From Bacteroidota bacterium (GTDB lineage Bacteria > Bacteroidota > Bacteroidia > AKYH767-A > OLB10): a stretch of 64,000 nt of DNA. Positions within the stretch are counted from its first letter, which is position 1; every line of letters starts with the position of its first letter. The stretch is from NCBI GenBank assembly GCA_024643795.1, contig JAHEMF010000004.1, positions 1-64,000 on the forward strand, written 5' to 3'. The notes beneath the pieces were generated by a model. That model worked only from the letters and a program-made list of their open reading frames with translations, ran no database searches and was not told the origin of the DNA. Below, in pieces: positions 15,091 to 44,374 of this stretch. The position numbers and the translations under genes are program-made.

Positions 15091-15101
15091 CTTATAGTTG
15101 T

Positions 15102-15788: not shown

Positions 15789-15807
15789 TAAAAAAATTAC
15801 TGCAAAA

Positions 15808-15832
15808 AAAACCCGGCCAATGGCCGGGTTTT
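15808..15832. terminator. Bidirectional rho-independent terminator
   Basis: A near-perfect stem (ACCCGGCCA/TGGCCGGGT) with a one-base loop in sequence (larger in practice), flanked by A and T runs. It sits between convergent genes ending at 15788 and 15854. Confidence 0.9.
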
Positions 15833-15853
15833 AATTTTTCACTATTACCGAAA

Positions 15854-16087: not shown

Positions 16088-16121
16088 CTTAATTGTTGGT
16101 TTTGGGATTTAAATTTGGATG

Positions 16122-16155
16122 CAAAGATATGTTATTTTAATCATCTAGAAGCCAA
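16122..16155 (-). promoter_or_regulatory. Promoter of the small lipoprotein gene
   Basis: The minus strand has TTG (16155-16153), then 23 bases, then TATCTTTG (16129-16122), a perfect TAnnTTTG. The leader is about 28 bases. Confidence 0.6.
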
Positions 16156-16269
16156 CTCATTAAATTTTATTAACATGGTTTTCAGCCGGCACTGCGAAAA
16201 CAATGGATGCTAATAATTGTTATTTTTACACCTCTCGACCAATCACTAACTATTGAAAAACACTTAATT

Positions 16270-16878: not shown

Positions 16879-16884
16879 ACCATT

Positions 16885-16914
16885 AAAAAAGGCTTCAGAA
16901 ATGAAGCCTTTTTT
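16885..16914 (+). terminator. Rho-independent terminator of sod
   Basis: Stem GGCTTCA/TGAAGCC extended by A/T pairs, with a four-base loop and six terminal T, beginning 7 bases past the sod stop codon. Confidence 0.9.
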
Positions 16915-17024
16915 AATAAAACTGTTGATAATTAGCTTCTTAACTAATGAATTTGAAGCAATAATTACCAACTTTTGCCGTTAACATTTTAACCAAATTA
17001 ACGGCTCCCGCTATAGGGCTCTTC

Positions 17025-26975: not shown

Positions 26976-27971
26976 CTAATTGAAAAACTTTTTGAATAGC
27001 CGGGGGATATCCTTAGCTCTTTTCAGGTTAAACAACAAGGCTAATGTCATACTAAATGGCAAAGTAAAATAGTACCAGCCCCTTTGAAATGTTCCTCCAT
27101 TTTTATCAGCTTGAACATATCCATATTGCTTCATAAAGTTACCTGTTATATTCTGGCATAAAGAGATCTCACCATGTGTAAGTCCACCTTGATGCCATCC
27201 GCCAGTTCGTTTAGAATCGATACCATAATCGTTTCCTTTATCCAGAGCATGCGAAGATCCCTTTTGAGGAATGTTAAGCATTTCTAAACTGAATTCTAGA
27301 CTAACATGTTTGCATATTTTATTTACAACTAATTCCGGATCAGCAATCAAGTCTTCAAACTTAATGATCAATAGATTACTGTCATTTTTAACAATTGAAA
27401 TTTGTTTCATAGCTGAAACCCAAAGCTTGCAAATGGTAATGGGGTGATAATTAACTCTTGCCCTTATGCTTTGAAAAAGGGGATAATCCTCCTTAGAATA
27501 TTTTCTTCGCTTCCATTTATTTTTCTGAGACAGCAGTACATCTCGAGGATCTCTTACCATTACTATGAATTTAGATTCAGGTATATACTGCTTCAAAGTT
27601 TCAAGATAAAAGATGTTTTGAGGTGTTTGTGCACATGCGACCTTTTTGCCAAGTTGGCCAGACCGAAAATTGAGAAACAGCTTGTACAACTCAATGGCCG
27701 TAATATTAATTTTATTTTGAAGAGCCTCATCTGCAACACCAGAATATTGTTCTGTATGACGTTTACCATAGTAACCATCAATATCTATGGACAATAACTT
27801 ACAAAATATATCTTTAGCTTTTAACGGCGAAAGGACTCGGTCAGGATGAAACGGGGCAGACAGCTCATCAAAATAATGCAACTCCTGAAAAGTATGTACA
27901 TTGGCGTTACGTCCCAATATTCTACTTACCATTGTGGTACCAGAGCGACTATTTCCAACTACAAAAATCAT
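26976..27971 (-). CDS. PAPS-dependent sulfotransferase (peripheral to the sulfation cluster)
   Basis: The 5'-phosphosulfate-binding loop NSRSGTTMV sits at residues 7-15 immediately after the first strand, and the 3'-phosphate motif MVRDPRDVLLS is near residue 136. Both PAPS-binding elements are intact. The 331-residue length matches bacterial glycan and lipid sulfotransferases. The gene is on the minus strand and divergent from the secreted glycoside hydrolase-like gene across a 105-base gap. It is outside the main operon but next to it, so I infer a role in the same sulfation pathway. The acceptor is unknown. Confidence 0.85.
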   Translation of the reverse strand: MIFVVGNSRSGTTMVSRILGRNANVHTFQELHYFDELSAPFHPDRVLSPLKAKDIFCKLLSIDIDGYYGKRHTEQYSGVADEALQNKINITAIELYKLFLNFRSGQLGKKVACAQTPQNIFYLETLKQYIPESKFIVMVRDPRDVLLSQKNKWKRRKYSKEDYPLFQSIRARVNYHPITICKLWVSAMKQISIVKNDSNLLIIKFEDLIADPELVVNKICKHVSLEFSLEMLNIPQKGSSHALDKGNDYGIDSKRTGGWHQGGLTHGEISLCQNITGNFMKQYGYVQADKNGGTFQRGWYYFTLPFSMTLALLFNLKRAKDIPRLFKKFFN

Positions 27972-28076: not shown

Positions 28077-29582
28077 ATGGCATTTAAACCTTTACTTATC
28101 CTTGTAATCATACTTCTTCAGGGAACCTGTTCTCAAAGCGGGCATATAATCAATGAAAGTATTCCATCCGTAACCATTGAAGTAGGAGTTTCATCCACAA
28201 CCAAACAACTTGGAGCAGAATTTTGGGGTTTCAATACCCAGATGATGAGAGGCCCTTCTTGGAAAACTCCTGGATTTATTGAACAAGTTAAAAGGCTTCA
28301 TCCACAGCTAATAAGATACCCAGGTGGCACGGTGGCTAGTTATTGGGACTGGAGAACAGGATGGCTAAAAGAAGGTATACCCCTCAAAGGGGATTGGGCA
28401 AAAATTCCTAAGAACCCGATAACAATACAAGACCTTAAATGGGCATGTGATCAAACTGGTGCTGCTCCGATTTTTGTTCTCAATATGATGAACAGTGAAT
28501 TACAGGACCAGATCTCATTCTTAAAAGCAGCTGACTCAATTGGATTAATGATTAAATATGTTGAGTTGGATAATGAAATTTATCTAGGTCAAAAATTCTA
28601 TGCCAATAAATTCCCTACAGGTGAAGACTATGCAAAAGAAGCATCGATATGGGCAGAAGCTATTTTAAAGCTATTTCCGGAAGCCAAACTATCTCTTTCA
28701 GGACATGCTGATCGCGGACCCAATGCAGGAAACATCAAAGCCTATCCTTCACGTGGAAATTCATGGAATCGCGAACTGGTATCATATGCTAAAAATTATG
28801 ATGCGGTTACATTCCATATTTATAGTGGCTCTGGACTAAAGTACTTGTCTGATAAAAATAATAACACTACTGAAGCTGAGAACTTTTATAACACCTTACA
28901 AAATCCTAAATCAATAGAATTTATTCTTGGAATTCCATTTACATCCGTTGAATCCTTTCAAGCAATTGACCTAAATTATGTAGAAGTAGATAAAAAGGCA
29001 TGGATAACGGAGTATAATTTGTTTGAAAAAGAAGGTATCCTAGCCGGTACCTGGTGTCATGGGCTATATGCTCTTACACAAACCATTTTAATTGGCAGCT
29101 GTAAGGAAACTGAAATCCTGTGTTATCATAACTTAACTACCTCCGCTCAATTTGCTGCTATTTTTAACAGTTCAAATGGTTTTGAAAAAGCTTATAAAAA
29201 ACAAGAAACTGAATTATTTGGATTGACTGCCGCAGGTGAGTGTCTATCACTATTTGGAGAAGCAATTATAGGGGCAAATCAACTCAGTAAATTAACATTT
29301 TCCCAGAATGAAGAACTAAAAACATTTAAGGGAGGAAAATATCCCTCACTCATTGGCATCCAATTAAAAGGTAATAAGACCAGACTACTAATAGTCAATC
29401 TTTCAGATAGTGAACAAAAATTAAATTGTGCATCATTTTTTAGCGAGCAACCGGCTTACAAATCCATACAAGCTGATCCTGATACTCAGATCTCCAAAAA
29501 TTCGGATGTTAAAAGGCTGGAAGGAAAAGGAACCTCGATCACGCTGTCACCTTATTCTGTAACGCTGATCTCGGGAAACTGA
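28077..29582 (+). CDS. Secreted glycoside hydrolase-like protein (clan A fold)
   Basis: A hydrophobic signal (about 3-17) precedes Cys18; the residues before it (GTC) are not a canonical lipobox, so lipidation is uncertain. The body (about 30-400) has the (beta/alpha)8 signature of clan GH-A: RYPGGTVASYWDW (about 80-92), the acid/base candidate E167 in ELDNEIYL and the nucleophile candidate E312 in WITEYNLF. This resembles arabinofuranosidase and GH39/GH79-type enzymes, but I cannot name the family. Its 3' end overlaps the convergent sulfotransferase gene by 31 bases. Its place beside sulfotransferases suggests trimming or turnover of the same glycan, which is inference. Confidence 0.75.
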   Translation: MAFKPLLILVIILLQGTCSQSGHIINESIPSVTIEVGVSSTTKQLGAEFWGFNTQMMRGPSWKTPGFIEQVKRLHPQLIRYPGGTVASYWDWRTGWLKEGIPLKGDWAKIPKNPITIQDLKWACDQTGAAPIFVLNMMNSELQDQISFLKAADSIGLMIKYVELDNEIYLGQKFYANKFPTGEDYAKEASIWAEAILKLFPEAKLSLSGHADRGPNAGNIKAYPSRGNSWNRELVSYAKNYDAVTFHIYSGSGLKYLSDKNNNTTEAENFYNTLQNPKSIEFILGIPFTSVESFQAIDLNYVEVDKKAWITEYNLFEKEGILAGTWCHGLYALTQTILIGSCKETEILCYHNLTTSAQFAAIFNSSNGFEKAYKKQETELFGLTAAGECLSLFGEAIIGANQLSKLTFSQNEELKTFKGGKYPSLIGIQLKGNKTRLLIVNLSDSEQKLNCASFFSEQPAYKSIQADPDTQISKNSDVKRLEGKGTSITLSPYSVTLISGN

Positions 29583-30577
29583 ACGCCATAGCCAAGTTTG
29601 AAAGCTGTTTCTGACAAAGGTTCTTTTAATAGCGGATGCAGCTCAACCTTTGATCGTACAGGCCTTGTACGAAGTTCACTTTTAGCATAAGTTGTTACAA
29701 CCTTATCCATCTCTAATCCCAGAAAATCAAGGATCCTTTTTATAGTATTTTCAGGTCCAGCAACAAGTTCTTCATAGGCCACAGGCAAAAAATTGTGAGG
29801 TTGCTCATCAATTGCCCTAAGTCCTTTATTCATGGTAACTATCCATTCAACTGCCGCCATATCGGTTTGCTTATCAAAGGCAGCAATTTCATTACAATAT
29901 ATACCAAGATATGGATCATATGGTACTACTTGCTCTACGATCAGTTTCCATTTTCTTTTATTGACACCCCACCAATCTTCAACTCTGCCATTATTTGTAC
30001 TACTGTTCTGTCTTGACCATTCAGCTGTTGAAACAATGGTATCCCATGGATTTCGATATAAGAAAATAAATTTGGGTGATTTGAAAATGCTATTGAGAAA
30101 CTCCGTCCGAAATATCATTTCCGGAAACTTATCAACCACGATCTTTGAACCTGTAAACTTTAAAAATGTTGAATAGATCGACTTTACTTTTTGTTCAAGA
30201 GATGGGTCAAAGTCATCAGAGTAAAGGCTCACAAATGCATCTCCATCGGAATAGCTTCCTGTAATATCACTATTTGGAATGACAGTATGCCATAGAGCTT
30301 TAGGCTCATTTAAAAAGCCAACATCTTTATGAAGTGATAAAATGACGCCAAGAATAGTGGACCCGCTTCTGCCTGTTCCTGTTATGAATACCGGAGAATC
30401 ACTTCCTTTAATTTGCCCTTGCCGGGATGCAAATTTTAATGCTGCAAATGTAACAGGATTAAACCAGCGTCCCTTTGTAGTAGCCGGTCTGCCTTCAAAA
30501 AATAAATAAGAAAAAATACGTGAGAAGACCTTTTGTGGCCTTGCTTTAATATATGCCTTATTTATTTGTGCTATCAT
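29552..30577 (-). CDS. PAPS-dependent sulfotransferase, last gene of the sulfation operon
   Basis: The PAPS-binding loop TGTGRSGSTILG (about 65-76) and the 3'-phosphate motif FLYRNPWDTIVST (about 155-167) are intact. About 60 residues precede the catalytic core, longer than in the other sulfotransferases here. I chose ATG 30577, which overlaps the preceding gene by 20 bases; a GTG at 30598 is possible. The 3' end overlaps the convergent glycoside hydrolase-like gene by 31 bases. It belongs to a distinct subfamily from the two similar sulfotransferases of the operon and may sulfate a different position. Confidence 0.87.
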   Translation of the reverse strand: MIAQINKAYIKARPQKVFSRIFSYLFFEGRPATTKGRWFNPVTFAALKFASRQGQIKGSDSPVFITGTGRSGSTILGVILSLHKDVGFLNEPKALWHTVIPNSDITGSYSDGDAFVSLYSDDFDPSLEQKVKSIYSTFLKFTGSKIVVDKFPEMIFRTEFLNSIFKSPKFIFLYRNPWDTIVSTAEWSRQNSSTNNGRVEDWWGVNKRKWKLIVEQVVPYDPYLGIYCNEIAAFDKQTDMAAVEWIVTMNKGLRAIDEQPHNFLPVAYEELVAGPENTIKRILDFLGLEMDKVVTTYAKSELRTRPVRSKVELHPLLKEPLSETAFKLGYGVQFPEISVTE

Positions 30578-31490
30578 GATTCGCAACAGCAATTCCACTC
30601 ACCCAAGTTGGTATATTAGCCACTTTCGCTGAAACCAGGATCTTGTGTAATTTCTCGTTATAAGGGCGAAAATAGGAATATAAGTTGTCAATAGTTGCAC
30701 GGTCTATATCAGACTTATCAAAAGACTGTCCGTTAATAAAGTAGTAACATCGTAAAACAGCGGATTTTAGCTCAGGAGACCATCTCCATAACTTATTTAA
30801 TATAAGATTCAACCAAACCGCAATACGGTGCATACCTCGATTTTTATAGCTAACCGACCTGTTCTTTACATCAAATTCATAGGCTGTATAAAACTCGGGT
30901 GATATACCTAACCACTTGCAAATATCAGCAAGTAAATTTCCTGGGTCGCTTTTTAACTCATCGAAAAAAACCACTTTTATGTTTTTTCCAAATACATCCA
31001 GCCAAGGTTCAATAAACTCTGAATACCTACTCAAATACACACCAGTATATAGCTGGTTTTCAATCCTATCAAGTTCGGAGCTATTGAATGAGAGACACTT
31101 ATCAATATAATCCTTGAAAGAAAGTTCCTGCGGCAACTGGAGTGTGGATTTTTTTCTGGTATAAAAAGATCGGGTCCGTTCAACAGGATCTTTAAGAATG
31201 ATCAGGATCTTAACATCAGGCAAAGTAGATTTTATGGTTTTAGCCATTCTTTCACCACCAAACATATAGGCAGGTGTTGATTCCATCCGGATCTTATACT
31301 CCTGACAACCACTGAACTGTTTTTCATACTCAGAAATAGGATTCGGATTATCCTGATACAGGATTGGTAAAAAATAACAGGTCTCTTTATCCTTTGAACC
31401 ACAAATTTCTGGATGCGCAGTTAAATAGTGGAATAATGAAGTGCTTCCTGCTTTATTGACACCAGCTATGATAAAATTTGCAACTTTCAT
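30558..31490 (-). CDS. PAPS-dependent sulfotransferase (heparan/NDST-like subfamily)
   Basis: The 310-residue product starts almost directly with the PAPS loop AGVNKAGSTSLFHYL (9-23), followed by HPEICGSKDKE, the typical acceptor-side helix of the Sulfotransfer_1 family. The 3'-phosphate motif ILKDPVERTRSFY (about 99-111) is present. It is clearly related to the 34186-35127 product (shared GSTSLF/GTTSLF loop and DPVER/NPVER motif), so the two look like paralogues with different acceptors. Within the operon it follows the glycosyltransferase after 39 bases and overlaps the next sulfotransferase. The subfamily suits glycan O- or N-sulfation. Confidence 0.9.
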   Translation of the reverse strand: MKVANFIIAGVNKAGSTSLFHYLTAHPEICGSKDKETCYFLPILYQDNPNPISEYEKQFSGCQEYKIRMESTPAYMFGGERMAKTIKSTLPDVKILIILKDPVERTRSFYTRKKSTLQLPQELSFKDYIDKCLSFNSSELDRIENQLYTGVYLSRYSEFIEPWLDVFGKNIKVVFFDELKSDPGNLLADICKWLGISPEFYTAYEFDVKNRSVSYKNRGMHRIAVWLNLILNKLWRWSPELKSAVLRCYYFINGQSFDKSDIDRATIDNLYSYFRPYNEKLHKILVSAKVANIPTWVSGIAVANHDSTNK

Positions 31491-31529
31491 TATAAAAAAT
31501 GGTTATCTATTGCCTTTCAATAAAACATA

Positions 31530-32774
31530 TCAATCAAGACGTATAGCATCCTGATAAATTTTAATTAACCTGTTATAGAAAACAGGGTCATTGAACATTT
31601 CATCTGCCATTGATTTTGCTTCGGCACCCATGCTTACTGGCACTGAAGCGTCTGAACAAATACTTCTGATGCATTCTGAAAGCTCATTTACATTATTGCT
31701 GTGATATACAAACCCGTTTTTACCGTGCTTTATATATTCAGGTATTCCACCCTTATCCGAACCTATCACTGCTTTGCCCATTGCAAATGCCTCAGTCATT
31801 ACATAAGGGAAATTTTCATACCAAAGAGACGGAACCACTACACACAATGACTCTGAAATTGTTTTCTTCAGCTCATCACCAACTACCATTCCTAGAAATT
31901 CAACATTATCACATCCGAGCTCTTTGGCCAATTGCTTTAATCGACTCATATAATTCCCATCACCTGCTATTTTCAGCTTTGCACTGGGTACAAGTTGCAT
32001 TGCTTTTATCAATATATCTACACCTTTCTCATCAGACAATCGACCCATATATAAAATATAATCACCATAAACACCTGATGCCTTAATAGCAGTGGCATCA
32101 AAAGGCTTCCCCAGAAATGCAGTATTAAATTCTTTACCATCCCAAAACTCTCGGGTTTTGTTTAACATGAATTCACTTTCAAATAAAAAGGTTTTAACAT
32201 TTTTTCTGAAAATATCTTTGTAGTCATGGTAATACGATTCAACAGCACTTGCAATACTAACACCGATTGAATGCTTACAACAATTGTTAAGAATGGCCAT
32301 ATAAAATCTGCCACCTTTACAATCCTCGCAAATATGTCCATGATGGAACAGTCTGTAATTTGGACAAAGGTGTTTGTAATCGTTACAAGACATTACAACA
32401 GGAACTCCTTCTTCTTTACACACTTCAAGGATACTTGGAGTTATTGTAACATATATTGCAAAAACATGAACTATATCCGGCTTAAATTCACGCAGCAGCT
32501 GTCTGAATTCCTCTTTATTCTTTTTATTATATATAGTTGCCGGGATTCTACCGAACCGTTTAATGATGTTACCATTGAGATAATCTACATAGTGACCCAA
32601 CTTAACTTTCTGATCATTTACCTTGAAGATGTCCTTACCACCCCCCGGATCAAAGATCGTGCTATAAGCCATCACCTCATGGCCATTAGATTCGAGAATC
32701 CTTATTACATCCTGAAAATACGCTTCCGCGCCCCCGACTTTTTTCCAGAATTTATGTGCCAGTAGAACTCTCAT
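31530..32774 (-). CDS. Glycosyltransferase, GT4 family
   Basis: Residues about 1-190 form the GT-B acceptor domain (VGGAEAYFQDV), and 190-400 the donor domain with ILYMGRLSDEKGVDILIKA and the E-x7-E-type region EAFAMGKAVIGSDKGG. A cysteine-rich insert (C-N-D-Y-K-H-L-C and C-E-D-C, about 130-165) is found in some exopolysaccharide GT4 enzymes and could bind metal. The ATG at 32774 shares one base with the preceding stop (TGATG), showing translational coupling; a TTG at 32777 is less likely. It adds a sugar to the glycan made by the cluster. It is the only clear glycosyltransferase in the operon, so other backbone enzymes must lie elsewhere. Confidence 0.9.
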   Translation of the reverse strand: MRVLLAHKFWKKVGGAEAYFQDVIRILESNGHEVMAYSTIFDPGGGKDIFKVNDQKVKLGHYVDYLNGNIIKRFGRIPATIYNKKNKEEFRQLLREFKPDIVHVFAIYVTITPSILEVCKEEGVPVVMSCNDYKHLCPNYRLFHHGHICEDCKGGRFYMAILNNCCKHSIGVSIASAVESYYHDYKDIFRKNVKTFLFESEFMLNKTREFWDGKEFNTAFLGKPFDATAIKASGVYGDYILYMGRLSDEKGVDILIKAMQLVPSAKLKIAGDGNYMSRLKQLAKELGCDNVEFLGMVVGDELKKTISESLCVVVPSLWYENFPYVMTEAFAMGKAVIGSDKGGIPEYIKHGKNGFVYHSNNVNELSECIRSICSDASVPVSMGAEAKSMADEMFNDPVFYNRLIKIYQDAIRLD

Positions 32775-34189
32775 CAAGTTGTGGTTTGTAATTCTGATTC
32801 ACTTGATGTGGCACTACGGATACGTTTCCATTCAGCAAATACCAAACCAGCCATCATCCAAAAGTAAAATCCGTATGAACGAAACAAGAAGGTTCGCAGA
32901 ATCATAGAATAAGGTATGGAAATTACTACTAAAACAGCCATCGCCAATGCAATGATCTTAAAATACGGATCCGGACTTTTTTTATACACCAGCATTGATG
33001 CTTTAAAAATCAAATAGAGGATATATAGAAAAATTGCGAGGCCTAAAAATCCATAGTAAATTACAAAGGCCACCCAATATACATCGTTTATAACAGGAAG
33101 GTTATTGATCGGTGTATTTGATCCAAACATTTTAGATGCAGCTTTCTCAAGTGCAAAATCCTGGGCCGGACTATACCCAATAATGTTATTTGTTTCCAAC
33201 AATTGACCACCTATCTGTGTTAAGACCAGTCCGCGGGAAAATTGTAGCGTATTATCAACATAATCATCATTAAAGATTGCCAATACATTGGTCAATGGAT
33301 CTGTATATTTCAGCTTTGGATTTATGTAAGGATCCTGACCCTGACTCAGAACGATCATGTTGATCAGAAATGGGCTCAGTGCAATTGCTGATACCACAAA
33401 TAGTATTGCCATTTTTTTACGCTTACCGGCAAGGAACATAAGTAGCGGCATTGTTAAAATTGCAATCAATACTGAACCACGGGAGTATGTGAAGAATATG
33501 GTAAGCAGAATTATTACAGCTAGCACATTAAGTAGTAGCTTTTTATTTCTTCCAAAACGCATTTCACTTTGTAAGGCCGAGAACAACATCACAAATGCTA
33601 TCACCATAAACAGTGCAAGTGGCACTGAATCACCGAAGGTTCCTATACCGGCACCTTGTTCCCTGCCGCCACCAAATCCGGTAGACAGTAATCTAAAGCT
33701 GACCTGTTTACCTCCTATTTCCAGATCACTCGCTCTTGGATACCAAAAATCAGAGATCCCTACATAATGCTGATAAAAAGTGACCAGCCCTTGAAAAGCA
33801 GCGATAACCAAAAGCAGATTAAAATACTTCTTAACCATCCCATGTTCTATTGACACAAATGCCATAACATAGAATAATGGTAAGTATCTGAGCAAGCTTC
33901 TTAACCCTACAAAAGCCTCAAGAACTGGCGCCTTATTGATCAAAGTGATAAGCAGCGCATAACCAATAAAGATCAACAAAGGTTTATCGATTGATGTACC
34001 TTTTGGCAATTTACCTGATTCCAATACTCTTATCAATAAAATGCCGGCAAGTGAATATATTAATACCTCGGCAAGGAATCTCAAATAACCATATACAACA
34101 TCTGAAACCGGCAGGAACTTAAGAAGCAGGATTTCAAAAGGAACAAAAACCACCAGAAAATATATAAGCCATGAAAACTTTATCTTCAT
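32774..34189 (-). CDS. Wzy/O-antigen ligase-like polysaccharide polymerase
   Basis: The 471-residue membrane protein has about 11-12 hydrophobic helices and a large periplasmic loop (about 270-370). The Wzy_C/O-antigen ligase signature TYSRGS is near residue 238. Such proteins polymerise repeat units or ligate them to lipid in the periplasm. The ATG at 34189 overlaps the upstream stop (ATGA), which decides the start over an earlier codon. Its position between a sulfotransferase and a glycosyltransferase, after a Wzx-like flippase, supports a Wzx/Wzy-dependent pathway. Confidence 0.85.
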   Translation of the reverse strand: MKIKFSWLIYFLVVFVPFEILLLKFLPVSDVVYGYLRFLAEVLIYSLAGILLIRVLESGKLPKGTSIDKPLLIFIGYALLITLINKAPVLEAFVGLRSLLRYLPLFYVMAFVSIEHGMVKKYFNLLLVIAAFQGLVTFYQHYVGISDFWYPRASDLEIGGKQVSFRLLSTGFGGGREQGAGIGTFGDSVPLALFMVIAFVMLFSALQSEMRFGRNKKLLLNVLAVIILLTIFFTYSRGSVLIAILTMPLLMFLAGKRKKMAILFVVSAIALSPFLINMIVLSQGQDPYINPKLKYTDPLTNVLAIFNDDYVDNTLQFSRGLVLTQIGGQLLETNNIIGYSPAQDFALEKAASKMFGSNTPINNLPVINDVYWVAFVIYYGFLGLAIFLYILYLIFKASMLVYKKSPDPYFKIIALAMAVLVVISIPYSMILRTFLFRSYGFYFWMMAGLVFAEWKRIRSATSSESELQTTT

Positions 34190-35127
34190 TGCAGCATTTT
34201 TATTGACCAAGGTGGCAGAGTTCCTGTTAGATTTTTAAGTTTAATAATGCTATCACTATAATAAGCATTCAATAATGTTAACCTTTCAGCTGAAAGAGTT
34301 GGAAAATTTCGATCCCCAACCGAACTGTTTAAAATATAATAGGCACCTTCAATTTTCTTACTGGCCGACCTGGCCTTTTCACCAATACTGATAGGCATTT
34401 TATTGACCATTGGCCTTAACCCTCTTCTGACTTTACGAAACCAATTATGAAAAACTGTACTCTTTACAGGAATAGTTTTGTTGTAAACCGGGAAGTCAAG
34501 CGAATCGAAATAACCTTGCTCGATATTCAAAAAGCAGCAAATATCTTTACACACTTTTTGAGGGGATGCTGTAAGATCTTCAAAGTAAATGATCTTCATC
34601 TCTTCCTTAGGGAATATGTTAGCATACATATTGAGGTACTGATAATACCTGCCTTGTTCTAATGCCCTCAAGTGCTGTGGTTTTACAGATAAATCATCAT
34701 TCAGTTGATCCTGTACATAAACTTCAAAACTTATTTGCGGATCCAATAACGCACTCTGAATGGCATAGTTATACCATGACCAGAGTCTTTCAACCGGATT
34801 TCTGACAACAAATAATATCTTTTTTGTTCCGGGAATTTCCCTCAAGGCATTTGCGGAACGTTCGCTATATAAATAGTCAGGGGTGGCTTCCATTCTCACC
34901 GGACGATGTTTGCATCCGTTAAATAAGTCATCATAGTTTTTAAAACCGCCTTGCTTCCCATCTATGGTGATCAAAGGGTAATCATTATACCAGAAATATC
35001 TGGACTCCTTCATTGCACTGGCACAAACCTGAGGGTGGTACTGGAAGTATTTGAATAATGAAGTGGTACCACATTTTGTGCTACCGGCTATGATAAAATA
35101 TGTATGTGGGGGATGTTTGGCATCCAT
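34186..35127 (-). CDS. PAPS-dependent sulfotransferase (heparan/NDST-like subfamily)
   Basis: The PAPS loop AGSTKCGTTSLFKYF (14-28) and the 3'-phosphate motif VVRNPVERLWSWY (about 107-119) are complete. HPQVCASAMKESRYFWY follows the loop, as in heparan-type and bacterial glycan sulfotransferases. The product resembles the 30558-31490 protein over most of its length. It sits directly after the flippase gene (18 bases) and overlaps the polymerase gene (ATGA), so it is coexpressed with export and polymerisation. This order suggests that the glycan repeat is sulfated during its assembly. Confidence 0.9.
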   Translation of the reverse strand: MDAKHPPHTYFIIAGSTKCGTTSLFKYFQYHPQVCASAMKESRYFWYNDYPLITIDGKQGGFKNYDDLFNGCKHRPVRMEATPDYLYSERSANALREIPGTKKILFVVRNPVERLWSWYNYAIQSALLDPQISFEVYVQDQLNDDLSVKPQHLRALEQGRYYQYLNMYANIFPKEEMKIIYFEDLTASPQKVCKDICCFLNIEQGYFDSLDFPVYNKTIPVKSTVFHNWFRKVRRGLRPMVNKMPISIGEKARSASKKIEGAYYILNSSVGDRNFPTLSAERLTLLNAYYSDSIIKLKNLTGTLPPWSIKMLQ

Positions 35128-35145: not shown

Positions 35146-36483
35146 TCACTCCGTTTTCAGAGGCCAAAAATAGGTCCTGACTCCAAACTTTTGCTTTATA
35201 TAGATCATTGCTATCAAATTCCAGGTAGCCATAAAAGCTGCATTAGCAATTGCTGAACCCATAATGCCATATTTAGGGATCAAAATATAGCAAAGGAAGA
35301 TATTTATCCCTGCCGAAAAAGCAACTATGTTACGCATCTGTTTTTGATATCCGGTCATATTTAAGTAGTGCCCAACCGAACCGGCAAAGAAGTTAAAAAA
35401 CTGTCCGGCCATTACTATTAGTAAAGCTCCCGAACCCAATTCAAAAGTTTCTCCAAATATCAATAGCAGATATTTTCTGAAAATGATAATAAAAATGAAA
35501 ACCGGTAATGTTGTAAAGAATATTACACTTGCCGTTTTTGATGTATAATTCTTTAACTCTTTTATATCTCCGGCGGCATGTAGCTGAGCAAAGCGTGGAG
35601 CGGAAATACTATTTATTGAAAGTAGAACAAAAGAAGTGAGGGTAGAGATCTTTAATACCACTGAATAAATCCCAACTGTTGATTCACTTTCATATATCCC
35701 CAAAATAATTGTATTAATCCAACCTGATATCAACACAAGCGAACCGGTTAGCATCATCGGCAATGCAAAAAGAACCAGTGAAGAAACAGTGTGTTGATCG
35801 GACCTAACAGTAGTTCCCTGATTTATTCTTTTGTACACCATCACAGATGCAGAAATCATTAATATTATTAGACTAATTGTATAGGCAATGTTAGGAACAA
35901 GGTCATTGTTCATAAACAAAGAAAGCCCACCCAAAATCACCGAACCATATAAGAAATAACTTACATTTTGACTGTATGCATACAATGTGAATTTTCTTAA
36001 CCCTCTATAACATTCAGAAGTAATATATCGCATTACCATAGGCAATACTGCAAATGACATTACTTTTAAATATGGAATCAGCCGAGGTTTGTGGAAAACG
36101 TTAACTGCGATAATATCTGCGCTTAAGTAAAGTATGACCGAAAGAATGAGTCCGACAGGTATAATAACATATAAGGTTTTTATATATACCTCTTTAATGA
36201 TATCAGATCGGTTATTTTGTGCTGATTGTGCAAAATGTTTTACTATAGCAGTATCCATACCCATTCTGCCAATAACAGTAAATATCATGAGCACTGTAAC
36301 TGACAATGTATATGCCCCCAGCACATCTGGGCCATAAAGTCTTGAGATTAAAAAAATAAAAAAGTATCCAACAATGATACCAAGCACCCTTATGGAAAAA
36401 TTGCCGGCGCCCCCCCCAATGATCTCTCTGTAGCTTTTATCATTCAGGATCCTGCTTGCTAAGTTTTTAAATGCGGCAGGCAT
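35146..36483 (-). CDS. Wzx-like polysaccharide flippase (MATE/MOP superfamily)
   Basis: The 445-residue product has about 12 hydrophobic helices of the polysaccharide-transport (PST) type, with a short basic N-terminus and the opening segment GAGNFSIRVLGIIVGY. A second half-repeat is seen after the Lys/Arg-rich central loop (about 215-240). It moves undecaprenyl-linked oligosaccharide units across the inner membrane. It follows cysQ after 7 bases, placing polysaccharide export directly in the sulfate-activation operon. The specific glycan is unknown. Confidence 0.88.
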   Translation of the reverse strand: MPAAFKNLASRILNDKSYREIIGGGAGNFSIRVLGIIVGYFFIFLISRLYGPDVLGAYTLSVTVLMIFTVIGRMGMDTAIVKHFAQSAQNNRSDIIKEVYIKTLYVIIPVGLILSVILYLSADIIAVNVFHKPRLIPYLKVMSFAVLPMVMRYITSECYRGLRKFTLYAYSQNVSYFLYGSVILGGLSLFMNNDLVPNIAYTISLIILMISASVMVYKRINQGTTVRSDQHTVSSLVLFALPMMLTGSLVLISGWINTIILGIYESESTVGIYSVVLKISTLTSFVLLSINSISAPRFAQLHAAGDIKELKNYTSKTASVIFFTTLPVFIFIIIFRKYLLLIFGETFELGSGALLIVMAGQFFNFFAGSVGHYLNMTGYQKQMRNIVAFSAGINIFLCYILIPKYGIMGSAIANAAFMATWNLIAMIYIKQKFGVRTYFWPLKTE

Positions 36484-36490
36484 ACGTTTA

Positions 36491-37309
36491 TCAGTTACGT
36501 GAAACTACGAAAAACGGATTGAGCAGGTCTTCTTTATTATAACCCATTTCAATATCCGTATCATAGATATTGATGGTACATCCTGCAAAAGTAGCTATAG
36601 CATGGCCTGCAGCAGTGTCCCATTCCATAGTTGGCGCCAGCCTGGGGTACACATCTGCTGTTCCATCTGCAACCAAACAGATCTTCAATGAACTACCACT
36701 TGAAATAAATTCAACTTCTCCATGCTTTTCACGAAGACCTTCGATGAAATTTTGAGTCTCGGCACTTAAATGAGACCTGCTTGCTACAGCTGTGAAGGGT
36801 CTGTTCATTTTTTGCACAGGTAACTTCTTACAAATACCTAAAACCGACTGCAGGTCAGAAAAATTTGTGGAACTTGAATGTGTGGAAGCAGATTCCAGCA
36901 TAAAGCTTCCTACATTACCTGCACCAAAGTATAGAGTGTCTTTAACCGGCGTATATATCACACCGGCAATAGATGCTCCTTGATGGATCAAGGCAATATT
37001 TACAGTGAATTCACCATTTCGCTTTATAAACTCTTTTGTGCCATCCAAGGGGTCTATCATCCAAAAATATTCCCAATTTTTCCTGTCTTCATATGGTATC
37101 TGTTTACCTTCCTCACTTAAAATTGGCAATTGAGTCAATAATAAGTCTGACACAATAGCTTGATTAGATCTTTTGTCTGCTAGTGTAAGTGGACTATTGT
37201 CGGCTTTGATTTCAACATTAAAGTTTCCCGAGTTGTAAACATCCATGATTGCCTTTCCGGCCTTTATAGATGCTTTAATAGCAATGATCAGATTGTGATT
37301 GATATCCAT
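36491..37309 (-). CDS. cysQ: 3'(2'),5'-bisphosphate nucleotidase
   Basis: CysQ removes the 3'-phosphate of PAP, the by-product of sulfotransferases and of PAPS reduction. The inositol-monophosphatase-type metal motif WMIDPLDGTKEF (83-94), the upstream EEG (66-68) and WDTAAGHAI (about 228-236) are all intact in 272 residues. The start abuts the cysN stop codon with no gap. Its place between cysN and the polysaccharide genes is telling: PAP inhibits sulfotransferases, so a co-transcribed phosphatase keeps sulfation running. Confidence 0.95.
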   Translation of the reverse strand: MDINHNLIIAIKASIKAGKAIMDVYNSGNFNVEIKADNSPLTLADKRSNQAIVSDLLLTQLPILSEEGKQIPYEDRKNWEYFWMIDPLDGTKEFIKRNGEFTVNIALIHQGASIAGVIYTPVKDTLYFGAGNVGSFMLESASTHSSSTNFSDLQSVLGICKKLPVQKMNRPFTAVASRSHLSAETQNFIEGLREKHGEVEFISSGSSLKICLVADGTADVYPRLAPTMEWDTAAGHAIATFAGCTINIYDTDIEMGYNKEDLLNPFFVVSRN

Positions 37310-38641
37310 TTATCTGATGATCATACCCGCACCTACAGTTTCATTAGTACCTTCATCAATAATAATTACACTACCTGTAACTCGGTTTCTTCGGTAATTA
37401 TCATAAAAAAGTTGGCCGGTGGTCCGGATCTGAATTCTGGCAATATCATTCATCCCGACCTCTTTGTCATTTTCATTTCGATGTAATGTGTTGATATCGA
37501 TCTTATATCTGATATCTTTTATAACACAACGCACATCTTTGATGGTGTGCTTGAGTGAATATTTTCCTCCGGTCATCATTTTTCTGTCGCTCATCCAACA
37601 AACCATAAGCTCCAGGTCCTGTGAAACATGTGGAGCGTTGTTTTCACGAACGATCATATCACCTCTGCTTATATCTATATCTGAATCAAGCGTCATGGTA
37701 ACAGACATAGGTGAAAAGGCTTCATCAATTTTATCTTCAACAGAAAATGAGTGCAAAGGATAAATGGCCTCGATCTTGGCAGAAAACCCTGAGGGTAAAA
37801 CTTTCACAGTATCCCCGGGCTTAAATACCCCGCCTGCTATTCGACCGGCATATCCTCTAAAATCATGGAATTCACGGGATTGCGGCCTGATCACATATTG
37901 AACAGGAAAGCGACAATCAATGTGGTTTTCATCACTACTGATATGTATGTTTTCAAGCAGATACAGCAAAGTTGAACCCTGGTACCACTCCATATTCTTC
38001 GACTTCTCAACTACATTATCGCCTTTCAATGCACTTATTGGAACAAAATGAATGTCTTTTACATCTAATCTAGAAGACAGTTTTTTATACTCATTCACAA
38101 GATGAACAAATGCCTCCTCATCATAGTCAACCAGATCCATTTTGTTTATACAAACAATGATGTGCGGTATCTGTAATAACGATGCAATAAATGAATGCCT
38201 GTTTGTTTGCTCTACTATTCCTTTCCTGACATCAACAAGAATGAGTGCCAGGTTAGCCGTAGATGCTCCGGTTACCATATTGCGGGTATATTGAATATGT
38301 CCCGGTGTATCAGCAATGATGAATTTCCTTCTTGGCGTTGCAAAATATCTGTATGCTACATCAATGGTGATCCCTTGCTCCCGCTCTGCCTTCAACCCAT
38401 CTGTAAGTAAAGCCAGGTCAACATGTTCAAATCCTTTTGCCAAACTGGATTTCTCAACTGCTTCCAGCTGATCTTCAAATATAGATTTGCTGTCATATAA
38501 CAACCTACCTATAAGTGTACTTTTTCCATCATCAACACTTCCTGCGGTAGTAAACCGAAGAAGCTCCATATTAAGGTAGTTGTCTAAGTCACTTGTCATT
38601 TCTTCAACTAAGATATTCTTTTCGAGTTTGTCAAGGTTCAT
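37310..38641 (-). CDS. cysN: Sulfate adenylyltransferase subunit 1 (GTPase)
   Basis: The large GTPase subunit of ATP sulfurylase drives APS formation from sulfate and ATP. The 443-residue product has the P-loop GSVDDGKST (34-42), DTPGH, and NKMD guanine-specificity motifs, followed by two beta-barrel domains of elongation-factor type. It is not fused to CysC, which is encoded separately here. The gene follows cysD after 2 bases. All key residues look intact. Confidence 0.96.
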   Translation of the reverse strand: MNLDKLEKNILVEEMTSDLDNYLNMELLRFTTAGSVDDGKSTLIGRLLYDSKSIFEDQLEAVEKSSLAKGFEHVDLALLTDGLKAEREQGITIDVAYRYFATPRRKFIIADTPGHIQYTRNMVTGASTANLALILVDVRKGIVEQTNRHSFIASLLQIPHIIVCINKMDLVDYDEEAFVHLVNEYKKLSSRLDVKDIHFVPISALKGDNVVEKSKNMEWYQGSTLLYLLENIHISSDENHIDCRFPVQYVIRPQSREFHDFRGYAGRIAGGVFKPGDTVKVLPSGFSAKIEAIYPLHSFSVEDKIDEAFSPMSVTMTLDSDIDISRGDMIVRENNAPHVSQDLELMVCWMSDRKMMTGGKYSLKHTIKDVRCVIKDIRYKIDINTLHRNENDKEVGMNDIARIQIRTTGQLFYDNYRRNRVTGSVIIIDEGTNETVGAGMIIR

Positions 38642-38643: not shown

Positions 38644-39549
38644 TTAAAAGTATCCTTGTTTTTTACGGTCCTCCATTGCTGTTTCTGAACGTTTATCATC
38701 GGTACGAGTACCGCGCTCCGTTACCCTTGCAATGGCAATTTCATTAATTATTTCAGTAAGTGTTGATGCGGCTGATTCCACGGCACCAGTACAGGTCATA
38801 TCACCTACTGTTCTGTACCTTACAGTTATAACTTCAGGGTTTTCATTTTCTCTGACCTTTATAAATGAAGAGTTAGCAAGTATTGTTCCTTCACGTCTTA
38901 CACACTCCCGCTGGTGAGAAAAGTAAATGGATGGTATCTCCAGCTTCTCCATAGCCAGATATTGCCACACATCCATTTCGGTCCAGTTACTCAATGGAAA
39001 TACTCTGAAATGTTCTCCCATGTGCTTTCTTCCGTTGAGAAGATTCCACAATTCAGGTCTCTGGTTTTTAGGGTCCCATTGTCCGAACTCATCACGATGT
39101 GAAAAGAAGCGTTCTTTGGCTCTTGCTTTTTCTTCATCGCGCCTTGCTCCACCAAGTGCTGCATCTATTTTTAATTCCTCTATCGCATCGAGCAATGTAA
39201 CGGTTTGTAAAATGTTACGACTTGAATTAGGCCCTTTTTCTTCAACTGCTCTTCCCTGGTCTATGCTATCCTGAACTGATCTTACAATAAGATTAGCCCC
39301 TATTTCCTCAACCATTTTATCTCTAAAAGCTATTGTTTCAGGAAAGTTATGGCCGGTATCAATATGAACAAGTGGGAAAGGTATTCTGGCAGGCCAAAAT
39401 GCTTTACGTGCCAGGTGAGTCATAACTATTGAATCTTTCCCACCGGAAAACAATAAAGCAGGGTTTTCGAACTGGGCTGCTGTTTCGCGTATCACATAAA
39501 TAGCTTCCGCCTCCAGTATACGCAGGTGATTAAGGTTATAAAGAATCAT
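38644..39549 (-). CDS. cysD: Sulfate adenylyltransferase subunit 2
   Basis: The 301-residue PP-loop ATP pyrophosphatase subunit carries FSGGKDSIV (34-42) and the CysD-type block RRDEEKARAKER (about 138-149), ending in RKKQGYF as is usual for the family. With CysN it forms adenosine 5'-phosphosulfate. Its ATG overlaps the cysC stop (ATGA) and cysN follows after 2 bases, so the three are translationally coupled. Confidence 0.97.
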   Translation of the reverse strand: MILYNLNHLRILEAEAIYVIRETAAQFENPALLFSGGKDSIVMTHLARKAFWPARIPFPLVHIDTGHNFPETIAFRDKMVEEIGANLIVRSVQDSIDQGRAVEEKGPNSSRNILQTVTLLDAIEELKIDAALGGARRDEEKARAKERFFSHRDEFGQWDPKNQRPELWNLLNGRKHMGEHFRVFPLSNWTEMDVWQYLAMEKLEIPSIYFSHQRECVRREGTILANSSFIKVRENENPEVITVRYRTVGDMTCTGAVESAASTLTEIINEIAIARVTERGTRTDDKRSETAMEDRKKQGYF

Positions 39550-40148
39550 TTTGCTGGCTTGATCAAGTTCATTACGTATGCTACAACTGTTTCAACTGAC
39601 TGATCAACTGACAACCTGTCTGTAGCAATCTCTATTTCTGCATTTTCGGGAGCCTCAAAAGGTGAACTTATGCCGGTAAAATCAGGTATCTGCCCTGCCC
39701 TGGCTTTTTTATACAACCCTTTCACATCTCTGGCTTCACAAATTTCCAGGGGGCAATTTACGAAAACTTCTACGAATTCCCCTTCACCTACGAGGCTTCT
39801 TACACTTTCACGATCCCTTTTAAATGGGGAAATGAACGCTGTCAGAACAACTATTCCGGCATCCACAAAAAGCTTGGCAACCTCACCAATACGCCGTATA
39901 TTCTCTTGCCGGCCTGCTTCTGTAAAATCTACATTGTTGTTTAACCCATGCCTTACATTATCTCCATCCAACACATAAGTCTTTATACCGGCACCGAAAA
40001 GCTTCTGTTCTACCTGATTAGCAATAGTGCTTTTGCCAGAACCGGAAAGTCCTGTGAACCAAACAATACAAGGAAGGTGTCCATTAGCACCAATCCGATC
40101 CTCTTTTCCAACTTTATATTCCTGTGGCTTAATATTGGTTGATCTCAT
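39546..40148 (-). CDS. cysC: Adenylylsulfate kinase (APS kinase)
   Basis: CysC phosphorylates APS to PAPS, the donor for sulfotransferases. The 200-residue product has the P-loop GLSGSGKST (33-41), DGDNVRHGLN (61-70), FTEAGRQENIRRIGEV (about 75-90) and the late FVNCPLEICEARD block. A separate CysC is needed to make PAPS both for sulfation and for assimilation, but no PAPS reductase gene follows here. It is 4 bases downstream of the permease gene. Confidence 0.97.
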   Translation of the reverse strand: MRSTNIKPQEYKVGKEDRIGANGHLPCIVWFTGLSGSGKSTIANQVEQKLFGAGIKTYVLDGDNVRHGLNNNVDFTEAGRQENIRRIGEVAKLFVDAGIVVLTAFISPFKRDRESVRSLVGEGEFVEVFVNCPLEICEARDVKGLYKKARAGQIPDFTGISSPFEAPENAEIEIATDRLSVDQSVETVVAYVMNLIKPAK

Positions 40149-40152: not shown

Positions 40153-41955
40153 TTATATTATATCATAAATTAATCCCAAAATTAAGATCACAGATATTAA
40201 ATACAAAAGAGTAAGTGGAATCCCGATCTTGACATAATCCCTGAATTTATAACCCCCGGGACCATATACCATTAAATTGGTTTGATACCCAAAAGGAGTA
40301 ATGAACTCTGCACATCCAGCAAAAGCTATTGCCAGTATAAATGGTGTATAAGAAAGGTCCGGGAAGCTACCCAGTCTCATTTCCTGAACCATAGCCATAG
40401 CGATAGGAAATGAAATTGCAACCGCTGCTTTGTTGGTCACCATCATTGACAGAAGATTAGTGATAAGATAAATTGTAAAGAGAGCGGCGATAGGTGAGTT
40501 AAATATCTCTACAACAGAAAGTAGTCCGTGTGCAAAATAAGTTGCAGCCCCGGAGTTTGTGATTGCCCTTCCTACAGCCAGTGCTAATGCCAATATTAAA
40601 AACATTTCAGCATCAAGATTTGATTTTATCCTATCAAAATCAATTGTTTTGGTTACTGCCAATAAAATCAGCAACACCAATAACCCTTTGAATAAGGCTA
40701 ATGATGTAAATGCAGATAAAAGGAAAACCAACACTGTGCCTCCAACAATAAATATAGATTTCGATTTTTCAGGTTTACTGATATTTGAAAATCCAGAGAT
40801 AGTATAAAAATCGTTGCTATCTTTTATTCTTGGTTTAAAATCATGTCCTGTTACAAGCAAAAGTAGATCTCCTGATCTGAGCTCTTGCTCACCTATACTT
40901 CCGGAAAGCCGTTCGCCGTCTCTACATATGGCAATTATTGCTGAATCATAGATACCCCTGAATCCGGTTGACTTAACAGTTTTCCCGATAAGGGAAGAAT
41001 TTGCTGCAACAACAACCTCTACCATTTCTCCACTTTCAGGAAGGTCTGTTTCGGCCAGATCGGGAAGTTTAATATCCTGACGATTCTTTACAAGCTCAGC
41101 AATAGTTTCTGTGTTACCTGCGAATATTAATATATCACCACCAGTAAGTATTTCATTAGGTTGTACCGGAGCTATGATCTTGCCATCACGAACTACCTCA
41201 GCCAAAAACAAACTTCCCAGATGCCGGAGAGTATCCTCAACCGTACCACCGATCAAACCTGAATTTTCGGGTATGATCGTTTCTATAAGGTATTCCCGTT
41301 TATGTTCTTCATATTCTTTTAGAGGGTCATTTCTATCAGGCAGTAATTTTGGTGCCAGGACCCATAGATATATCAATCCTACAATAGATAACGGCAAGCC
41401 CACATATGAAAAGTCAAATATGTGAAGTGGTTTTATATCAGGGTTCAGGTGAGATGCTTCCACAGCAAGTCCATTAACTACAAGATTTGTTGAGGTTCCT
41501 ATTAACGTGACCATTCCTCCAATAATAGCTGCGTAAGAAAGTGGTATCAGCACTTTTGAAGGTGATATTTTTTTATTCGAAGCCCATTGCCATGTATAAG
41601 GTATCATTATGGCAACCAGAGGTGTGTTGTTTACCCATGCAGAAAAGATAGACACCATAGATGTCATTCGGAACAAGAACCCCCGGTACGACAAGTCGGC
41701 ATGAAAAAGCCTGGAAATGAGCGCATTAAGCACTCCTGATGATTTGATAACATCGCTTATAAGCAATAATAAGAATATGACTGCTATTTGTTCATTGGCA
41801 AACCCATTAAGTGCCTCCCCAGGAGTGATTATGCCACTCACCAACAACATAGCTACAGCGATCATGAACACCAACGAAGGACGTATGAACTCTTTATATA
41901 AAGAGAATATGAGAAAGCACACCACAAAAGTGGTGATGATGACCTGTAAATTCAT
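40153..41955 (-). CDS. SLC13/DASS-family permease with RCK_C domains (probable sulfate importer)
   Basis: The 600-residue product has two blocks of membrane helices (about 3-200 and 395-600), each with a family-typical loop (NNTPLVAIMIPY; TNKAAVAISFPIAMA). Between them lie two RCK_C/TrkA_C domains of about 80 residues (about 215-300 and 305-385). SLC13-type carriers move sulfate or dicarboxylates with Na+. The position as the first gene before cysC, cysD and cysN points to sulfate. A perfect -7 element lies just upstream, and the gene likely heads a ten-to-eleven-gene operon. Confidence 0.88.
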   Translation of the reverse strand: MNLQVIITTFVVCFLIFSLYKEFIRPSLVFMIAVAMLLVSGIITPGEALNGFANEQIAVIFLLLLISDVIKSSGVLNALISRLFHADLSYRGFLFRMTSMVSIFSAWVNNTPLVAIMIPYTWQWASNKKISPSKVLIPLSYAAIIGGMVTLIGTSTNLVVNGLAVEASHLNPDIKPLHIFDFSYVGLPLSIVGLIYLWVLAPKLLPDRNDPLKEYEEHKREYLIETIIPENSGLIGGTVEDTLRHLGSLFLAEVVRDGKIIAPVQPNEILTGGDILIFAGNTETIAELVKNRQDIKLPDLAETDLPESGEMVEVVVAANSSLIGKTVKSTGFRGIYDSAIIAICRDGERLSGSIGEQELRSGDLLLLVTGHDFKPRIKDSNDFYTISGFSNISKPEKSKSIFIVGGTVLVFLLSAFTSLALFKGLLVLLILLAVTKTIDFDRIKSNLDAEMFLILALALAVGRAITNSGAATYFAHGLLSVVEIFNSPIAALFTIYLITNLLSMMVTNKAAVAISFPIAMAMVQEMRLGSFPDLSYTPFILAIAFAGCAEFITPFGYQTNLMVYGPGGYKFRDYVKIGIPLTLLYLISVILILGLIYDII

Positions 41956-42850: not shown

Positions 42851-43702
42851 TTAAATCCCAACCGGATGCCAGGAGGTTTTTATTTCTTGCAGATCAGTAA
42901 TCCTGTCAAGTGAAAATGATTTTTTTGAACTCCAGTTCTGATCACTCCAATTAGCAACTCTTTTCACATTTTGAGAAGCTAATGTATGAATCTGTTTTAT
43001 TAACTCTTTATCTGTAGAGTTGTGAACCAGAGCATTGATATCCAGATGCGATGCCAGCACAGAAACTAATTCATCAGCATAACCGGTTAAAACGTTAACA
43101 ACTCCTCCGGGAACATCTGAAGCTATCAAAACTTCACACAGTTCTATGGTTATCATAGCATGATTTTGTGCAGCAAGCCCTACCACCGTGTTCGATCCTG
43201 CAAGAGCTGGTGCTAAACACCCCACTAAGCCTGCCAAACCAGACGATTCCGGAAAGATCATTGCTACAACACCATTGGGCTGAGCAAATGAAAATGAAAA
43301 GTATGGGGCAGATACAGGATTTACCGTACCTGATATCTGCTGGTACTTATCGCACCAGCCTGCATAATATATGAAGGTATCAATTGCATGGTCAACTTCT
43401 TTTGCTGCAGCTGAACGAGTGCCGCCACTTAACTGTACAAGTTTCACAAATTGTTCTTTTCGGCCAGACAAAGTTTCAGCTATCCTATATAGTATAAGTC
43501 CTTTGGTGTAAGGTTCCACCTGGGACCATGCATTCAGTGCCTTCTGAGCTGCAACTACAGCATTTCGAACATCTTTGGGTGTGGCCCTGCAGATATTGGC
43601 GATCTCGTTCGCTTTTGGACTTGCCATTTTGTATGAACGACCCGACTCGGAGCGGGAGAATCTCCCGCCGATAAATAATTTATATGTTTTAGGAATTTCC
43701 AA
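42851..43702 (-). CDS. Short aldehyde dehydrogenase-family protein lacking the catalytic domain
   Basis: The 283-residue product covers only the NAD-binding half of the ALDH fold (KLFIGGRFSRSESGR at the start; NGVVAMIFPESSGLAG; DVPGGVVNVLTGYADEL). The catalytic cysteine and glutamate of the full enzyme are absent, and it ends at TSWHPVGI. I take TTG 43702 as the start because an in-frame stop lies three codons upstream. Short ALDHs next to a full ALDH occur in Bacteroidota and resemble the pseudo-catalytic half of ALDH16-type proteins. It may form a complex with the upstream full ALDH, but a terminator lies between them. Confidence 0.8.
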   Translation of the reverse strand: MEIPKTYKLFIGGRFSRSESGRSYKMASPKANEIANICRATPKDVRNAVVAAQKALNAWSQVEPYTKGLILYRIAETLSGRKEQFVKLVQLSGGTRSAAAKEVDHAIDTFIYYAGWCDKYQQISGTVNPVSAPYFSFSFAQPNGVVAMIFPESSGLAGLVGCLAPALAGSNTVVGLAAQNHAMITIELCEVLIASDVPGGVVNVLTGYADELVSVLASHLDINALVHNSTDKELIKQIHTLASQNVKRVANWSDQNWSSKKSFSLDRITDLQEIKTSWHPVGI

Positions 43703-43807: not shown

Positions 43808-44374
43808 TCAGTCTACTTCAACATGACTCCAGTTTTCTCCGGACTTGATCCTGTAAAGCTGCATTTCAGAGATATCATACTTTTCAGCGATCTCCCGCAT
43901 GGTTAAACGGCGATTAGGGTTGAATATCTGTTTTTTGATCTGCTTTACTGTTTTAACCGTTAGTTTATGACCTTCATAAATAGGACGATTCATTCGCTCT
44001 TCACGACTTTGAATCACCAATGGGCTTTTCTGCTGATGTTTGTGCATCTCATCCTTGTCTGCCCATTTCAGGTTATTGGTTTTGTTATTCAACTTATCAT
44101 GATCCTTATGAATCACAAATTCTTGTTTACGTCCTCTCTTCAGGAAATTTTCTGCAACCAACTTATGAATATAGTAAGTTTTATTTTCGCCAAATGGCTT
44201 AATATTCAAGGTAGGATAGCCTCCAATTGTAGTTCCGCGAAGAACTTTCCCATCATTGATGTTTTTACTGAAGCTTGCGATGCGACCGAGGTTAGAAACA
44301 GCGTAACGAAACCTTAAAGCTCCTTTAGGCATTTTTAACTCTTTCCACTTTTCATTTTTTAATGCTTTAATCAT
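43808..44374 (-). CDS. NUMOD4/HNH/HTH-domain protein
   Basis: NUMOD4-like N-terminus: W10 and YAVSNLGRIAS (about 24-34). HNH_3-type nuclease core: YYIHKLVAENF (H70 region), VIHKDHDKLNN (H89, H92, N96, N97) and NLKW (101-104). C-terminal helix-turn-helix: TMREIAEKYDISEMQLYRI (about 158-176). The combination resembles phage or homing HNH endonucleases, yet related chromosomal proteins with this length and end (YRIKSGENWSHV) are, as I recall, common in Bacteroidota. It sits 52 bases downstream of the ALDH gene on the same strand. The key catalytic histidines are present. Its role is unknown. Confidence 0.8.
   Translation of the reverse strand: MIKALKNEKWKELKMPKGALRFRYAVSNLGRIASFSKNINDGKVLRGTTIGGYPTLNIKPFGENKTYYIHKLVAENFLKRGRKQEFVIHKDHDKLNNKTNNLKWADKDEMHKHQQKSPLVIQSREERMNRPIYEGHKLTVKTVKQIKKQIFNPNRRLTMREIAEKYDISEMQLYRIKSGENWSHVEVD

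Follow-up and report, generated by a model that had tools for sequence, protein, structure and literature searches.

The 26.9-42 kb block of the window (the whole 64,000-nucleotide stretch of DNA that was analysed) contains four sulfotransferase genes, here called ST-A, ST-B, ST-C, and ST-D, among genes predicted to serve sulfate activation and polysaccharide synthesis. From 41,955 downwards the minus strand carries, with short gaps or overlaps between genes, an SLC13/DASS-type anion permease with TrkA-C domains, a probable sulfate importer (40,153-41,955; PF03600 2.3e-56, PF02080, and PF00939 8e-10); CysC, the PAPS-forming APS kinase (39,546-40,148; PF01583 1.4e-68); CysD, the small subunit of ATP sulfurylase (38,644-39,549; PF01507 1.9e-48); CysN, its GTPase subunit (37,310-38,641; PF00009 and PF22594); CysQ, for removal of the by-product PAP (36,491-37,309; TIGR01331 2.8e-74, above the cut-off); a Wzx-type flippase (35,146-36,483; PF01943 2.2e-22 and PF01554 6.6e-23); ST-A (34,186-35,127, 313 aa; PF00685 3.8e-16); a membrane protein of the Wzy polymerase or WaaL type (32,774-34,210); a GT4 glycosyltransferase (31,530-32,777; PF00534 7.8e-38); ST-B (30,558-31,490, 310 aa; PF00685 1.6e-9); and ST-C (29,552-30,577; PF13469 9.3e-24). 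ST-C is convergent with a plus-strand gene for a secreted or lipoprotein-like glycoside hydrolase (28,077-29,582), which is in turn divergent from ST-D (26,976-27,971, reverse strand, 331 aa; PF13469 2.9e-26). The listed ORF of ST-C begins at a GTG at 30,598, but its start is probably the ATG at 30,577, giving 341 aa, since its orthologues start at the same MIAQ. An Rfam search of the window gave no match, and a promoter scan gave a result no better than shuffled sequence.

All four proteins pass the sulfotransferase cut-offs of Pfam, PF13469 being the best-scoring family for ST-C and ST-D, and their ORFs lie at or near the positions in the first-pass annotation, which had proposed four such enzymes in one polysaccharide locus. 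The motifs it named, RNPVER (ST-A) and KDPVER (ST-B), are present, as are the distinct loops TGTGRSGST in the 348-residue ORF (ST-C) and NSRSGTTM in the 331-residue ORF (ST-D); the loop AGxxKxGTTSLF that it ascribed to both ST-A and ST-B is found in ST-A (IAGSTKCGTTSLF), but ST-B reads IAGVNKAGSTSLF, with GST and not GTT. We read the conservation of the active sites from subfamily alignments of 25 (ST-A), 22 (ST-B), 41 (ST-C), and 84 (ST-D) members. In ST-A, K18 of the PSB loop, the catalytic E41, and R109 and S117 of the 3′-PB motif are kept in the subfamily of 25, with K18 replaced by arginine in 4; in ST-C, R77, E98, R182, and S190 (numbered from the GTG start) are invariant in the 41 sequences; and in ST-D, R9, E30, and R140 are invariant in the 84, with S148 in 83 and a gap in one. 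ST-B has K13 of the PSB loop, E36, and S108, and its first 3′-PB arginine is replaced by K100, the sole departure among the window enzymes from the PSB loop, catalytic glutamate, and 3′-PB residues; lysine stands at this position in 2 of 21 relatives and arginine in the other 19. Judged by the 5′-PSB loop, the 3′-PB arginine and serine, and the catalytic acid, and with the lysine of ST-B noted, all four qualify as PAPS-type sulfotransferases whose donor-site and catalytic motifs are complete, and none looks inactive. Since their PAPS sites are intact in the motif alignments, we found neither the inactive sites nor the placement outside sulfotransferases that had been named as counterevidence. 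The proteins fell short of the NodH/NoeE profiles (NoeE 37 and 20 bits, against a cut-off of 500) and of Stf0 (PF09037, 16.4 against a cut-off of 22). A relationship of ST-C to designed repeat proteins (top PDB matches 4rv1 and 4hxt) was rejected, each matching stretch being insignificant.

It is possible, though we doubt it, that some of the four enzymes are accessory or redundant and that fewer than four positions are sulfated. The lysine of ST-B in the 3′-phosphate motif would fit such redundancy, as would the synechan cluster, where deleting xssE left EPS accumulation and bloom formation without substantial change (PMC8205485); on the other side, the catalytic and PAPS residues are kept in subfamilies of 22 to 84 members, the lysine is also found in orthologues of ST-B, and NDST1 itself has an asparagine at the aligned position. 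As the xssE result illustrates, sulfated positions cannot simply be counted from the enzymes: the four sulfated acceptor positions first suggested for this locus are plausible, with one position per enzyme as a presumption.

The pairwise similarities divide the four into two pairs from two families: ST-A and ST-B share 29% identity over 284 residues (E 8e-36), ST-C and ST-D are a weaker pair (24% identity, E 3e-12), and there is hardly any mutual detection between the pairs. The earlier description of two related and two divergent enzymes is thus correct for ST-A and ST-B, but ST-C and ST-D are not two loners. In the tree, in which the subfamily labels were taken from profiles and so are not independent of the tree, the ST-A and ST-B groups are sisters with a joint support of 95/94 (97/93 for the ST-B clade, and a weaker 81/50 for the ST-A clade), and both clades include members of several phyla. 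The two can therefore be called paralogues, as had been suggested, in the sense of an ancient split; a recent tandem duplication is ruled out, each enzyme having its own multi-phylum clade. The other sulfotransferases of the sampled loci cluster with the solved bacterial structure 3rnl, with one long-branch exception. A phylogeny with characterised enzymes, the check first proposed, does not group ST-A and ST-B with NDST or 3-OST: HS3ST and NDST form a separate clade (support 99/96), outside all of these sulfotransferases, and this rules out ST-A and ST-B as heparan-sulfate enzymes proper. HS3ST and NDST belong to the same PF00685 fold family, and their catalytic glutamate and PAPS motifs align with those of ST-A and ST-B; the resemblance to heparan-sulfate enzymes in the PDB search is due to this shared family.

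The hydrolase at 28,077-29,582 matched no Pfam family above the cut-off, GH51 and GH79 included, and its homologues gave only weak matches to PF03662 and PF11790. Its AF2 model (pLDDT 69, pTM 0.76) matched a GH51 structure best in Foldseek (4atw, E 4e-20) and also a GH79 beta-glucuronidase (8ohu, E 1.5e-17), and its profile found GH51 structures in the PDB at 3e-18. E163, E167, and E312 are invariant, and the acid/base and nucleophile glutamates are kept in 15 homologues; the protein has the clan GH-A fold with the NE acid/base and TE nucleophile. This hydrolase group falls between GH51 and GH79, recurs beside sulfotransferases in Poribacteria, cyanobacteria, and Bacteroidota, and is possibly an unnamed glycoside hydrolase family. 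In one Poribacteria locus, a sulfatase with an N-sulphoglucosamine sulphohydrolase C-terminal domain and a dockerin adjoins ST-C (L093:12792-14834).

The Wzy-like gene has its first ATG at 34,189, overlapping the end of ST-A by 4 bp. The protein matches PF04932 at 2.8e-5, below the cut-off, and a PDB sequence search with it gave no match. In Foldseek, its AF2 model (pLDDT 77.5, pTM 0.83) has WaaL as its sole good match (7tpg, E 1.1e-5, TMt 0.70). Wzy and WaaL have a common fold, so this match does not separate a polymerase from a ligase. Because this "Wzy" scores below the Pfam cut-off and its closest solved fold is WaaL, the product could instead be a sulfated O-antigen or a lipid-linked oligosaccharide handled by a WaaL-type ligase, and not a free or capsular polymer. 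We consider this rather unlikely: the top structural match, the name of the Pfam family (O-Antigen ligase), and the single glycosyltransferase at the locus speak for it, but the shared fold makes the match non-discriminating, LPS-core genes were not seen nearby, and an exported hydrolase adjoining the genes fits a polymer better.

The ORFs scanned beside the sulfotransferases include a single glycosyltransferase (the GT4) and no sugar-nucleotide genes; the larger part of the repeat unit must therefore be made elsewhere. Compared with Wzx/Wzy clusters for sulfated EPS, the locus has the flippase gene (by PF01943 and PF01554) and the sulfotransferase genes (four), but not the initiating transferase, several glycosyltransferases, and PCP that complete such a cluster; with one GT4, and with no PCP found in the block among the ORFs scanned around it, we class the locus as working like Wzx/Wzy clusters and not as a complete member. 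The genome assembly consists of 110 contigs, and another of these holds a second polysaccharide locus (L031, C104:23000-42000; 5657-18672), with three more sulfotransferases, a Wzc-like protein (PCP), a flippase, glycosyltransferases, and a Wzy-like protein. Outside the block, a NUMOD4/HNH homing-endonuclease-like ORF (43,808-44,374, reverse strand) lies between aldehyde dehydrogenase genes at 44,427-45,911 and 42,851-43,702, which are directly adjacent in a relative (L037:287-2719); Rfam gave no intron here.

CysC, CysD, CysN, and CysQ are classical assimilation genes, and the PAPS genes could in principle serve sulfate assimilation, with the sulfotransferases as minor users; we regard this as very improbable. 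Sulfite reductase (PF01077) was found in none of the 24 genomes of the window's family, while the same search was positive in 11 of 14 control genomes, and APS kinase is present in 19 of the 24; the activated sulfate of this family is therefore unlikely to feed assimilation, and an assimilatory role of CysC is disfavoured. CysC presence instead tracks the sulfotransferases. The only family genome with a sulfotransferase but without APS kinase is 79% complete, and the four genomes of one genus (G020-G023, genus g10) have neither a sulfotransferase nor CysC, a natural negative control. Across 197 Bacteroidia genomes at least 90% complete, counting a sulfotransferase of either family, 95 of the 102 genomes with CysC have a sulfotransferase against 0 of the 95 without it (Fisher 2e-48, kinship not corrected), as do 63 of the 67 that have CysC and lack sulfite reductase. 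At least nine families include both genomes with CysC and a sulfotransferase and genomes with neither, always concordantly; the association between sulfotransferase and sulfite reductase is weak (p 0.07).

Another genus of the family has orthologues of all four sulfotransferases, arranged in the same order, which argues that the set is not due to chance: in two genomes of genus g5 (L032, L033, and L034) the window genes are in identical order, the hydrolase too. In genus g4 (L037), the run from the SLC13 permease through CysC, CysD, CysN, CysQ, Wzx, ST-A, and Wzy to ST-C is kept. ST-A relatives occur in 20 of the 24 family genomes, many of them forming tandem groups of three to five next to Wzx. 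We also scanned species genomes with the ST-D alignment, finding 240 relatives and keeping 80 loci, which span Poribacteria, Planctomycetota, Chloroflexota, Bacteroidota, and others; as the loci were gathered by ST-D similarity, counts across phyla are biased, but no locus was chosen for its other genes. Among the 78 other loci with a clear ST-D, 60 have at least two sulfotransferases within 10 kb, 46 at least three, and 30 at least four, these being lower bounds because of contig ends. Multi-sulfotransferase loci are thus the rule around these enzymes, and the remark in the first-pass annotation that such a set is uncommon is wrong for genomes; it is fair for the literature examined, where multi-sulfotransferase loci outside cyanobacteria are hardly described. 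The core (Wzx-STA-ST-Wzy, GT4 or GH, then STD/STC) recurs in Poribacteria (STA-ST-Wzy-GH-STD-STC), Phycisphaeraceae (STA-ST-Wzy-GT4-STD-STC-STB), and Anaerolineae (Wzx-STA-ST-Wzy-MT-GT4-STC-STD), and in part in cyanobacteria. The cyanobacterium Waterburya (L079) and Rhizobium sp. L1K21 (L068), the latter with relatives of ST-C and ST-D, are cultivable and hold a portion of the module. In the ST-C tree the sequences group by phylum, most phyla being single groups (with limited support), so recent exchange is not seen; we tried recent transfer of the module between phyla as an explanation and found no sign of it in this tree, which is limited by long branches and by the sampling through ST-D similarity.

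This repeated linkage to Wzx, Wzy, and glycosyltransferase genes across phyla also bears on the acceptor. PF00685 and PF13469 include small-molecule enzymes too, ST-D weakly matches SULT2A1 structures, and a Bacteroides sterol sulfotransferase is a precedent for a sterol acceptor. It is nevertheless improbable that small molecules, sterols, or lipids are the acceptors of these enzymes, with the polysaccharide genes adjoining by chance, given that linkage, the presence of four different enzymes, and the fact that ST-A and ST-B have glycan enzymes as their closest solved relatives among eukaryotes.

Alongside what is established at the sequence level (family membership, intact sites, gene order, conservation across genera and phyla, and co-occurrence with APS kinase), we infer with good confidence that the block encodes the synthesis of a Wzx/Wzy-type polysaccharide, multiply sulfated and either cell-surface or extracellular, and that it also provides the PAPS for this purpose. 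Sulfate would enter through the SLC13 permease and be converted to APS by CysD/CysN and to PAPS by CysC, and the four separate enzymes very probably attach sulfate to the surface polysaccharide, the presumed acceptor: ST-A, ST-B, ST-C, and ST-D would take the sulfuryl group of PAPS and place it on hydroxyl or amino groups as the repeat unit is built. This step would most likely take place on the cytoplasmic face, prior to flipping, the membrane side being our assumption. PAP accumulation inhibits sulfotransferases, and CysQ would clear this by-product. Wzx would then flip the repeat unit for the Wzy-like protein to polymerise (or ligate), and trimming or release of the polymer may fall to the exported clan GH-A hydrolase.

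The combination of PAPS genes and sulfotransferases in a polysaccharide cluster has been described as a hallmark of sulfated polysaccharide synthesis for Vibrio sp. KMM 8419, whose capsule structure was solved (PMC11641403). That capsule cluster likewise has cysC, cysN, and cysD with three sulfotransferases, and its product is sulfated; unlike the window, the cluster is of the ABC-transporter type, spread over 80 genes and without Wzy (PMC11641403). The xss cluster for synechan in Synechocystis sp. PCC 6803 (L131), whose authors knew of no sulfotransferases in other bacterial EPS clusters, is likewise of the Wzx/Wzy type, with two sulfotransferases and eight glycosyltransferases against four and one GT4 in the window; sulfate-activation genes and a hydrolase are not listed for it, unlike in the window (PMC8205485). 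XssA is nearer PF00685 and XssE nearer PF13469, the same two families as the window enzymes, but they reach 66 and 70 bits with profiles in which subfamily members attain at least 200 to 300. This lies far under the subfamily level, and XssA and XssE are therefore not orthologous to the window enzymes. The wps-1 cluster of Actinoplanes missouriensis, in the part of its description available, is likewise Wzx/Wzy and combines a glycoside hydrolase with two sulfotransferases from different families; it differs in its GH26 hydrolase and in having two sulfotransferases, its product is predicted, and that part mentions no PAPS genes (PMC13390465). The GAG-like cluster of Pontiella sulfatireligans has one sulfotransferase with many glycosyltransferases, a gene content differing from the window, and a sulfated exopolymer that was measured (PMC7356697). 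Polysaccharide clusters with PAPS genes and sulfotransferases are thus of a known kind, and the window is an apparently undescribed, richer variant; in the open-access papers searched we found no description of a four-enzyme set with its own PAPS supply, a hydrolase, and multi-phylum spread.

Sulfated polysaccharides of bacteria have recently been called nearly exclusive to cyanobacteria (PMC8205485, PMC13390465), GAG-active sulfotransferases have been stated as not known in prokaryotes (PMC7356697), and no sulfotransferase was found in mat Bacteroidetes genomes (PMC9723792). Here, sulfotransferases were found in 95 of 197 genomes of one class, each time together with APS kinase, and several phyla with few descriptions of sulfated polysaccharides share a multi-sulfotransferase module. 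Sulfated polymers have been measured in sludge granules, their makers not being known (PMC10483923, PMC7356697), and sulfated GAG-like polymers of unknown producer are reported in anammox granules, according to work cited in PMC7356697. The anammox bacterium Candidatus Kuenenia hertensis (L058) has ST-B and ST-D relatives with Wzx and GT4. As a tentative, still doubtful extension, ST-A/ST-B, ST-C, ST-D, Wzx, the Wzy-like protein, and the clan GH-A hydrolase might together form an ancient cross-phylum module for a densely sulfated, glycosaminoglycan-like polymer, the APS kinase of Bacteroidia might exist almost wholly for such sulfotransferases, and the carriers could be producing the sulfated GAG-like polymers measured in sludge and in anammox granules. 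The analysis yields profiles and candidate producers for the sulfated polymers of sludge granules, as well as a set of predicted bacterial glycan sulfotransferases to assay; its main value lies in the cross-phylum module and in showing how APS kinase is linked to sulfation within the Bacteroidia.
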